Positions 2,024 through 6,803 of a stretch of 64,000 bases of DNA are shown in pieces. Source of the DNA: Silanimonas sp. (GTDB lineage: Bacteria; Pseudomonadota; Gammaproteobacteria; Xanthomonadales; Xanthomonadaceae); the NCBI RefSeq assembly GCF_027530345.1, contig NZ_JAPZQK010000006.1, positions 124,001-188,000 on the forward strand, read 5' to 3'. The translations under genes were made by a program, and so were the position numbers. Below the pieces are notes generated by a model. That model was not told where the DNA came from and did no database searches. It was given only the letters and a program-made list of their open reading frames with translations. Position 1 is the stretch's first letter. Each line of letters begins with the position of its first letter.

Positions 2024-2949
<926 letters not shown>

Positions 2950-2953
<4 letters not shown>

Positions 2954-3738
2954 GCGCCGCCACCCCCAACCCCAACTGGACGGCGTTCCGCACCATCATC
3001 CGCCGCGAAGTCGCGCGCATCGTCCGCATCTGGGGCCAGACCCTGGTGCCGCCGGCGATCACGATGACGCTGTACTTCCTGATCTTCGGCAAGTTGATCG
3101 GCAGCAAGATCGGCGACATGGGCGGCTTCAGCTACATGGACTTCATCGTGCCGGGCCTGGTGATGATGTCGGTGATCCAGAACGCCTACGGCAACATCAG
3201 CTCCAGCTTCTTCGGCGCGAAGTTCGGCCGCCACATCGAGGAGCTGCTGGTGGCGCCGCTGCCGAACTGGGTGATCCTCGGCGGCTACGTCGGCGGCGCG
3301 GTGCTCCGCGGCTTCATGGTCGGCGCCATCGTGCTGGCCGTGGCGATGCTGTTCACCAAGGTGCGCGTGCACGATTGGGCGGTGACGGTGAGCACCGTCC
3401 TGCTCGGCGCGGTGATCTTCTCGCTCGCCGGCTTCGTCAACGCGGTGTACGCGAAGAAGTTCGACGACATCGCGATCATCCCCACCTTCATCCTGACGCC
3501 ACTCACCTACCTCGGCGGCGTGTTCTATTCGGTGAAGCTGCTGCCGGACTGGGCCGAAGCGGCCACGCACGCCAACCCGATCTTCTACATGGTCAATGCC
3601 TTCCGCTACGGCCTGCTCGGCACCGGCGCCACCGACGTGCCGCTGTGGAGCGCGTATGCCGTGATGCTGGGCGCCGTCATCGCACTGACCTGGCTCGGCC
3701 TGTGGCTGCTGCAGCGCGGCGTCGGCCTGCGCAGCTGA
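2950..3738 (+). CDS. yadH: ABC-2 type transporter permease, YadH type
   Basis: A 262-residue ABC-2 permease with six hydrophobic segments. The motifs around FIVPGLVMMSVIQNAYGN and RHIEELLVAPLPNW are the usual YadH/DrrB signatures. The start at 2950 overlaps the stop of yadG (ATGA). The long N-terminal extension in the ORF track is a frame-2 read-through of yadG and is not coding. Together with YadG it should form a homodimeric-permease exporter in the inner membrane. A GC-rich hairpin follows the stop codon. Confidence 0.93.
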
Positions 3739-3744
3739 GGAACC

Positions 3745-3763
3745 CCCGCCCGATTCGGGCGGG
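3745..3763 (+). terminator. Hairpin terminator candidate after yadH
   Basis: A perfect 8-bp inverted repeat, CCCGCCCG-ATT-CGGGCGGG, starts six bases after the yadH stop codon. There is no U-tract. A TATGCT element just after it (3767-3772) could be the -10 of the next operon. Confidence 0.5.
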
Positions 3764-3805
3764 CGCTATGCTCCACGCGACCAACTCGGGGCGCGGGAGT
3801 ACGTG

Positions 3806-4621
3806 ATGGACGACGCTGCCACGCTCGATATCCACCGGCGCCACCGCGTGCGGGTGGAGGGAACCGGCCCCACCCTGCTCTACGCGCACGGCTTCGGCTG
3901 CAGCCAAGCCATGTGGGACGCAATCCTGCCGGCGTTCGCCGGGAGCCATCGCCAAGTCGCGTTCGATTACGCCGGATCAGGCCGGTCCGATCGTGCCGCG
4001 TACGATCCGAAGCGCCACGCCTCGCTCGAAGGCTACGCCGACGACCTGCTCGCGATCGCGCGCAGCGTCGCGCCGCCCGAAGGCCTCACCCTCGTGGCCC
4101 ACTCGGTGAGCTGCAGCATCGGCATGCTCGCCGCCGCGCGCGAGCCCGCCCTCTTCCGCGACCTCGTTCTGCTCGGCCCGAACCCCTGCTTCATCGACCA
4201 TCCGCCCGACTACATCGGTGGCTTCCAGCGCGCCGACCTCGAAGGCCTGCTCACCCTGATGGACCAGAACTACCTGGGCTGGGCGCAGACGCTGGCCCCG
4301 GTGGTCGCCGGCGAAGGCGGCGGGGCCGAGGTGGCAGGGCGGCTTTCCGAAAGCTTCTGCTCGACCGACCCCGATGTGGCGCGCCAGTTCGCTGCGGCCA
4401 CCTTCTTCTCGGACAACCGCGCCGACGTCGAGCGCGTCCGCACGCCCGCGCTGCTGCTGCAGCACCGCCACGACGCGCTCGCACCTCTGGACGTCGGGCG
4501 CTGGCTGAAGGCGCGCCTCCCGCAGGCCACGCTGGAGGTGCTCGACGTCGCCGGCCATTGCGCCCACATGAGCCACCCGGCGCTGGTGGTCGACGCGCTG
4601 CGGAGGCGGCTTGCCCGCTGA
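3806..4621 (+). CDS. RsbQ-like alpha/beta hydrolase (ligand-sensor type)
   Basis: A 271-residue alpha/beta hydrolase that resembles Bacillus RsbQ along its whole length. It shares the landmarks LLGPNPCFIDHPPDYIGGF, FCSTDPDVARQFA and AGHCAHMSHP. The triad is Ser100 (AHSVS), Asp223 and His251. These are exactly four residues beyond RsbQ Ser96, Asp219 and His247. RsbQ is related to the plant receptors KAI2 and D14 and activates its partner RsbP through RsbP's PAS domain. Here the downstream partner has an RsbP-like PAS domain but a GGDEF output. ATG 3806 is chosen over GTG 3803 because the GGGAG upstream is better spaced. The natural ligand is unknown. Confidence 0.88.
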   Translation: MDDAATLDIHRRHRVRVEGTGPTLLYAHGFGCSQAMWDAILPAFAGSHRQVAFDYAGSGRSDRAAYDPKRHASLEGYADDLLAIARSVAPPEGLTLVAHSVSCSIGMLAAAREPALFRDLVLLGPNPCFIDHPPDYIGGFQRADLEGLLTLMDQNYLGWAQTLAPVVAGEGGGAEVAGRLSESFCSTDPDVARQFAAATFFSDNRADVERVRTPALLLQHRHDALAPLDVGRWLKARLPQATLEVLDVAGHCAHMSHPALVVDALRRRLAR

Positions 4622-4631
4622 GCGCTCATCG

Positions 4632-5606
4632 ATGGCCGAGCTGCTGCCGCGCCTGCCGGCGCTGGTGGTCGTCACCGATGCGAGCGGGAGCCTGCAGACG
4701 ATCACTGGCGACGTCGTCGAAGAGCTGGGCATCGAAGCCGGCGCCCTCGACTACATCGGCACGCTGTTCGGCCGCGCCTCGGCCATTTTTCTTGAGACCC
4801 ACCTCTGGCCGCTGCTGCGTCGCGATGGGCGTTTCGATGAATGCCACGTGCTGCTGCAGTCGCCGGGCGGCACCCCATGGCCCTGCCTCGTCAGCGCACG
4901 TCGCCTCGACGACGGCGCGCGGGTGCTCTGGCTGTTCTTCCCCGCGAGGGAGCGCGCGCGCTTCGAAGCCGAGCTGGTGGCCGCACGTCAGTCCGCGCAG
5001 GGTCTCGCGCGCGAGCTGGCCGAGGCCAATCGGCGCCTCGAGGCGCAGTCCGAAGCCATCCGCACGCGCAACGACGAGCTTGACCAGCTCGCCCGCACCG
5101 ACCCGCTCACGGGCCTCGGCAACCGGCGCGCGCTCGATGCCGCGTTCATGGCCAGGCCGGCCGCCCCGCAGGACGGCACGCCGTCAACCGACAGTGCGTT
5201 GCTCATGGTCGATGCCGACCACTTCAAGGCCATCAACGACCGCTGGGGCCATGACGTCGGCGACACCGTGCTGGTGGCCATGGCAGGCGTTCTCCGAACC
5301 TGCCTGCGGCGCAGCGACACCGTCGTGCGCCTTGGCGGCGAAGAGTTCGCGTTGTGGCTTCCCGACGCGAGCCCCGAGGCCGCCGCTCGCGTGGCGGAAA
5401 CCGTGCACGCCAAGATGGCGGCCATGCTGCTGCCGGATGCCACCCAGGCACTGACGGTGAGCATCGGCGCGGCGATGCTCGGCGGCCAACGCCATCGCAA
5501 CGACCTCGCCTTGCTGCTCAAGCGCGCCGACGAAGCGCTTTACCTCGCGAAGAGCGCCGGCCGGCACTGCACGCGCCGGGCGGACGCGCTGCCGCATGCC
5601 GACTGA
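4632..5606 (+). CDS. PAS-GGDEF diguanylate cyclase
   Basis: 324 residues. A PAS domain occupies about 1-105 and contains the FLETHLWPLL motif seen in PAS domains that partner RsbQ proteins. A predicted coiled coil follows (about 108-155), then a GGDEF domain (about 156-315). The active site is GGEEF at 235-239 and the inhibitory I-site RRSD is at 226-229, five residues upstream, so an active, feedback-inhibited c-di-GMP synthase is expected. The gene abuts the RsbQ-like gene. A TTG at 4611 with GGAGG upstream is an alternative start that overlaps the hydrolase. Activation of the cyclase by the hydrolase is inferred from the RsbQ/RsbP precedent. Confidence 0.9.
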   Translation: MAELLPRLPALVVVTDASGSLQTITGDVVEELGIEAGALDYIGTLFGRASAIFLETHLWPLLRRDGRFDECHVLLQSPGGTPWPCLVSARRLDDGARVLWLFFPARERARFEAELVAARQSAQGLARELAEANRRLEAQSEAIRTRNDELDQLARTDPLTGLGNRRALDAAFMARPAAPQDGTPSTDSALLMVDADHFKAINDRWGHDVGDTVLVAMAGVLRTCLRRSDTVVRLGGEEFALWLPDASPEAAARVAETVHAKMAAMLLPDATQALTVSIGAAMLGGQRHRNDLALLLKRADEALYLAKSAGRHCTRRADALPHAD

Positions 5607-5609
5607 CGA

Positions 5610-6803
5610 TCAGCCCTCGCGCCAGTCCTCGCCGGGCAGGATGCGCCGCAGGTAGGCGTCGAACATCGGCACGGTGAACGCGGTATCGCCGTGGTTCGGG
5701 CTCCACACCATGCCCTTGTCGATCAACTGCGCGCGGATCGGCCCCATCGCGGTGACCTTGCGACCGAGGGTGTCGGCGATGTCGCCGGAGCGGTGCGGGC
5801 CCGGCCCCAGCGCCGCCATCGCGCGCAGGTAGCGCTTCTCGGCCAACGTGAGGCGATCGAAGCGCACGCGGAAGAAGCTTTCGTCGAGGGCCGCCACCGC
5901 CTCGCGCGCGGCGCGTTCGACGTCGGCGACCGTGATCGGCGAGCCCTTCGCCACGTCCCAGGCATGTTTGCCCCACTCCTGCAGGAAGTAGGGGTAGCCC
6001 TCGGTGGCTTGGAGGATCGCCTCGGTGGCCGCGGGCTCGAAGCGCACGCCCAGCGCGGCCGCCGGCACCTCGATGGCATCGCGAGCGGCCGTGGCGTCGA
6101 GCGGCCCGATGAAGGGGAACGCGAACAGCCGCTCGGCATAGGACTTCGCGCGGCCCATCTGGCCGGGCAGCGACGGCAGGCCGGCGCCCACCAGCACCAC
6201 CGGCACCTGCTGCTGCGCGCAGCGATGCAGGGCCGTGACCAGCGAGGCCAGCTGCTCTTCCGGCACGTACTGCAGCTCGTCGACGAAAAGCACGAGGGCG
6301 GTGCCGTCGGCCTGCGCGGCACGGGCCGCGGCTTCCAGCAGGGCCAGCAGATCGCTCTCGAGGTCGCCGTTGTCGGCGAGGCCGGGCTCGGGATCGAGGT
6401 CGATGCCCACTTCGAGATCGGCGTACTTGAGCTTCAGCGATTTCGCGAACCCGGCCAGCGCGCGCAGGCCGCGGCTGGCGAGGTCCTTGGCCTTGTCGCG
6501 ACGCGACAGGCGCAGCAAGGCGAGGCGCAACTGCGGCGCCAGCATGGCCGGCAGCGAGCGGCCTTCCGGCGCTTCGATGCGGATGGTCTCCATGCCCGCG
6601 GCCTCGGCGTCCTGTCGCATGCGGTCGAGCAGCACGGTCTTGCCGACGCCGCGCAGGCCGACCAGCAGCACGCTCTTGGCCTGCCGGCCGGCACGGATGC
6701 GCGCGATGGCGATCCGCACCTGCTCGATCAGGGCGTCACGGCCGGCGAGCTCGGGCGGCGGCGCCCCGGCACCGGGGGCATAGGGGTTGGCGATGGGGTC
6801 CAT
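5610..6803 (-). CDS. AAA ATP-binding protein with C-terminal winged helix
   Basis: A 397-residue ATPase of the broad archaeal-type/STAND-like AAA class. It has a Walker A GLRGVGKT at 49-56, a Walker B LVLFVDEL near 170-177, a sensor-like VVLVGAGLPSLP, and a helical lid. The C-terminal 90 residues (LTLAEKRYLRAMAALGP onward) read as a winged-helix DNA-binding domain. Proteins of this form are widespread, and their roles are mostly undefined. The gene is convergent with the GGDEF gene, three bases separating the stop codons. It has its own AT-rich promoter region, so it is probably monocistronic. Confidence 0.8.
   Translation of the reverse strand: MDPIANPYAPGAGAPPPELAGRDALIEQVRIAIARIRAGRQAKSVLLVGLRGVGKTVLLDRMRQDAEAAGMETIRIEAPEGRSLPAMLAPQLRLALLRLSRRDKAKDLASRGLRALAGFAKSLKLKYADLEVGIDLDPEPGLADNGDLESDLLALLEAAARAAQADGTALVLFVDELQYVPEEQLASLVTALHRCAQQQVPVVLVGAGLPSLPGQMGRAKSYAERLFAFPFIGPLDATAARDAIEVPAAALGVRFEPAATEAILQATEGYPYFLQEWGKHAWDVAKGSPITVADVERAAREAVAALDESFFRVRFDRLTLAEKRYLRAMAALGPGPHRSGDIADTLGRKVTAMGPIRAQLIDKGMVWSPNHGDTAFTVPMFDAYLRRILPGEDWREG

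Follow-up and report, generated by a model that had tools for sequence, protein, structure and literature searches.

Within the window, the whole stretch of 64,000 nucleotides from Silanimonas sp. that was analysed, a gene resembling rsbQ lies next to a gene for a PAS-GGDEF protein, and the question is whether the two are mere neighbors or parts of one sensing system. We consider it very probable that they form an RsbQ-RsbP-PAS two-gene sensing module with diguanylate cyclase output. This interpretation as a two-gene module, first proposed from the letters of the DNA, was supported by co-occurrence, adjacency, conserved pairing, and the PAS residues that have been kept. The features concerned are listed in table 1.

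Table 1. Predicted features of the hydrolase-cyclase locus and its flanks (window positions)
Feature	Position	Strand	Basis or remark
ABC-2 type transporter pair (ATPase, permease)	2024-3738		directly upstream of rsbQ
rsbQ homologue, alpha/beta hydrolase, 271 aa	3806..4621	+	phmmer to RsbQ 1wom; Pfam Abhydrolase_1
PAS-coil-GGDEF protein	4611..5606	+	ORF; AlphaFold model mean pLDDT 91.8
RsbP-class N-terminal PAS, residues ~15-111	4653..4943	+	family HMM; residue match to 2011 class
Continuous signalling helix, model residues 112-161	4944..5093	+	AlphaFold; linker multiples of 7
GGDEF diguanylate cyclase domain, GGEEF + product-inhibition site RRSD	5091..5567	+	Pfam PF00990
AAA ATPase, AAA_16/STAND-like	5610-6803	-	convergent with cyclase gene

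Modules of this kind have been described before. Nadezhdin, Brody and Price (PLoS One 2011; PMC3183031) described 45 cases in which RsbQ and an RsbP-PAS protein are encoded side by side. The output domain of these pairs is a PPM phosphatase, a histidine kinase, or a diguanylate cyclase, and the authors proposed that one input can reach different outputs by way of the RsbQ-PAS module. Their cyclase-type module (e.g., Psychromonas ingrahamii A1SVT3) has in common with the window pair the gene order, the RsbQ homologue, the N-terminal RsbP-class PAS, the coiled coil, the GGDEF output, and the proposed mechanism; the window pair differs in species, in Ala at the equivalents of C10 and Q53, and in its linker of 49 residues, but not in kind. 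A new type of wiring was thus ruled out by that paper. The sequence-only reading had offered the transfer of RsbQ/PAS to a cyclase as an inference of its own, and because this was already published in 2011 (PMC3183031), the novelty of the locus is well below its estimate. What goes beyond the earlier work is extended evidence, namely a wider survey of the pairing, a heptad-quantised linker, and signs that the module moves in one piece. In the literature searched, RsbQ was named along with both GGDEF and hydrolase only in that paper and in another on the activation of RsbU/RsbP; neither an experiment on a cyclase-type RsbQ-PAS module nor a ligand for any RsbQ was found.

The hydrolase frame begins with ATG, about 6 nt after a GGGAG. 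In a phmmer search against the PDB, its top match was RsbQ (1wom, E=4.5e-78) and its second the bacterial homologue 3qvm (1.1e-71); after the bacterial matches came D14 (1e-45) and then KAI2 (~1e-39). The label RsbQ is therefore correct, because RsbQ ranks above D14 and KAI2. The closest named record is 97% identical in the hydrolase. Of the earlier description as an RsbQ/KAI2-like hydrolase, the first part stood, while the second applies at the superfamily level only: the plant D14 and KAI2 proteins belong to the same branch of the hydrolase superfamily and have the triad in common with the window hydrolase, but their similarity to it is weaker than that of RsbQ, and their partners are F-box/SMXL proteins, whereas the partner in the window is a PAS domain. 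The triad itself (S100, D223, and H251) is in frame with that of RsbQ, as had been claimed, and across 82 homologues S and D were invariant and H was present in 81.

Whether the hydrolase acts as an enzyme or as a receptor is a sub-question within the best explanation. It is possible, though we say so tentatively, that it works as a genuine enzyme, supplying the PAS pocket with a product that it makes or delivers, and that the PAS is the sensor (Model 1, PMC3183031). As another possibility, somewhat doubtful but not remote, it may be a D14/KAI2-like receptor (Model 2), so that occupancy by the signal molecule, and not a product, would switch c-di-GMP synthesis. The near invariance of the triad in the 82 homologues favors the enzyme, but D14 and KAI2, which follow directly on the bacterial proteins among the solved relatives, are receptors that keep the triad as well, and so its conservation cannot decide between the two. 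Likewise, the triad is required in B. subtilis, which again suits an enzyme, but no ligand was found with RsbP-PAS (PMC3183031). If the receptor reading is true, the long search for the RsbQ ligand could use the window pair as a ready-made reporter. An RsbQ/PAS-GGDEF pair has an easily measured nucleotide as its output, so candidate ligands could be assayed directly on it, and the same assay could decide between the two published models.

The partner gene starts at TTG 4611 (331 aa) or at ATG 4632 (324 aa). The TTG lies about 4 nt after a GGAGG, and its frame overlaps the rsbQ stop; depending on the start, the two plus-strand genes overlap or nearly touch. No PAS was called in a Pfam scan of this protein, although Pfam PAS models match most members of its PAS family, and the family HMM matches it with E=4e-48 (the window sequence being one of the six seeds). 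By sequence, no solved relative of RsbP-PAS was found beyond a weak match to FixL. The AlphaFold model (mean pLDDT 91.8) shows a PAS-like order of strands and helices at the N-terminus, a 50-residue helix, and then the cyclase.

The residues of this PAS were compared with those of RsbP (TTG-start numbering throughout). The RsbP-style motif FLETHLWPLL that had been noticed is present at residues 60-69, and the F-alpha segment reads IFLETHLWP. RsbP L48, F55, Y59, P62, E72, and P86 correspond at a constant offset to F53, F60, H64, P67, E77, and P91. Among 31 DGC-type partners, F60 and E77 were invariant, position 64 was H or Y in 30, and the L48 equivalent, which is L or F in the family, was F in 8, as in the window. 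L48, F55, Y59, and E72 are essential in B. subtilis and P86 is important (PMC3183031), so the window PAS retains the positions essential in RsbP. Its two clearest departures from the class are the Ala residues at the C10 and Q53 equivalents, and alanine at these positions had modest effects only in B. subtilis (PMC3183031). The PAS ends in LWLFFPARERARFE without a DIT motif, and the class likewise lacks DIT. By its most N-terminal place and its class residues, the domain belongs to the RsbP-like class. Two further weak candidates, G247 and G277 (E ~1e-17, without RsbQ), were rejected for lack of the F-alpha pattern IF..TH.WP; they look like general PAS domains of outgroup type. Compared with B. 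subtilis RsbQ/RsbP, then, the window has an RsbQ orthologue and conserved key residues of RsbP-PAS, but RsbP ends in a PPM phosphatase, whereas the window output is GGDEF.

Conserved pairing across genomes was the survey that the sequence-only reading had named, and the pairing was borne out. In 61 related genomes, 7 carried the hydrolase, the identical 7 carried the PAS, and the genes were adjacent in all of them; by counting, with kinship ignored, such coincidence has a chance of 1 in C(61,7), or ~2e-9. In a wider species collection, 78 of 80 rsbQ loci had an RsbP-PAS neighbor, and the remaining two were truncated where a contig ended; 51 partners were GGDEF proteins and 27 were other RsbP-PAS proteins. 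Ten non-GGDEF partners (nine from the 80-locus set plus L015) were scanned, and eight were histidine kinases; the remaining ones carry the label "kinase" in our tree from length and likeness only. The other two scanned, L018:4839-5621 and L050:4858-6000, are RsbP-PAS proteins in which nothing but more PAS domains precedes the stop; their output domain is missing, split, or disrupted by a sequencing error. Gene order was reversed at L037 and G396. No natural RsbQ-PAS fusion was seen, and a stop separated the genes at the intact adjacent loci inspected. The distances of RsbQ and PAS were correlated (r=0.76; 0 of 2000 permutations as high), partly due to shared descent. In a tree built from the hydrolase and the PAS together, at least three label changes on well-supported branches are needed to account for the cyclase type, which would be in keeping with the exchange of output domains. 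The module is sparse, since only 4 genomes in an even sample of 370 from the class had the hydrolase.

The module also seems to be mobile. Silanimonas lenta (L064), Caldimonas manganoxidans (L057), and Tepidimonas fonticaldi (L058), which belong to different families, share 98-99% DNA identity, limited to the module with a few hundred flanking bases (L064:3903-6489), while L016, a close relative of the window, has a different module lineage with 69% DNA identity to L064. A transposase-like ORF, assigned by reading, lies just upstream of the S. lenta module (L064:2786-3793). Thus, recent transfer of the module as one unit between families appears to have taken place in hot-spring bacteria; assembly contamination is a less likely source of the sharing.

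These distributions bear on the view that the adjacent genes work apart, the hydrolase being metabolic and the cyclase sensing its own cue through its PAS. Orphan relatives of RsbQ do exist, such as the more distant L098 (44% identity), which has no PAS neighbor. But the perfect co-occurrence and adjacency in 7 of the 61 relatives, the 78 of 80 loci, the contact residues retained in the window PAS, and the apparent transfer as a unit make this view very unlikely.

Signalling between the PAS and the cyclase was considered from the linker, taken as the distance between the conserved Arg that follows the PAS and the Asp at the start of the GGDEF domain. In the window it runs from R115 to D164, 49 residues or seven heptads; it lies in the helix of the predicted structure and would thereby exceed the 21 residues that the class has as a minimum for its helical coiled-coil linker. 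All 46 single-PAS members had linkers of 28, 42, 49, or 56 residues, that is, whole heptads; these include re-fetched copies, and after removal of near-copies the rule held in 17 of 17. With only four length classes, the independent length events number about four or five. Such lengths are what a coiled coil transmitting rotation or register would be expected to require, and the conserved heptad phase, with heptads not mentioned in PMC3183031, offers checkable support for coiled-coil signalling.

At the C-terminus, Pfam matched GGDEF (PF00990, 139 bits) where RsbP-type proteins have a PPM phosphatase, which is absent; the replacement of the PP2C phosphatase that had been read from the sequence was thereby confirmed. 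GGEEF occupies residues 242-246 and the I-site RRSD residues 233-236, five residues ahead (TTG numbering), and the domain has the residues predicted for an active diguanylate cyclase. The first four matches of a structure search included PAS-GGDEF-EAL and LOV-coil-GGDEF proteins. PAS/LOV- and phytochrome-activated cyclases (8c05, 5llw) have the same N-terminal sensor, coiled coil, and GGDEF, but they sense light through their own chromophore, whereas the input of the window protein would be a separate hydrolase. That a degenerate GGDEF merely binds c-di-GMP or GTP as the output is scarcely credible: no sequence support for it was found in the window protein, and GGEEF, D203, and the I-site are intact and conserved. 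Chance or mistaken ORFs were ruled out by E-values and conservation, the similarity being far beyond chance.

For the sensing module, the following mechanism is proposed. The hydrolase, with its intact Ser-His-Asp site, would accept a small molecule and touch the F-alpha region of the PAS in a dimeric partner. Direct RsbQ-PAS contact has been shown in B. subtilis (PMC3183031), and by analogy we infer the contact in the window pair. It would set the state of the PAS dimer, and a continuous coiled coil in heptad phase may carry this state to the two GGDEF domains, whose c-di-GMP synthesis would change as a result. Product bound at the RRSD I-site would limit this synthesis as well. Like the contact, the activity of the window protein as a cyclase, the direction of the control, and the ligand are presumed. 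Here, as in the literature, a small molecule is presumed to be bound or hydrolysed and thereby to control c-di-GMP. At 53 GGDEF matches, the c-di-GMP repertoire of the source genome is large for a genome of 3.4 Mb, and with about 50 such matches the effect of the module on total c-di-GMP may be small.

A promoter scan at the module found nothing. L017 has DNA similar to the ABC-2 transporter region of the window upstream of its module. Between the permease gene (ending at 3738) and rsbQ, a strong GC hairpin without a T tract was observed at 3745-3763 (z = -2.8 for the RNA fold of 3735-3806), and it may end the transporter transcript.
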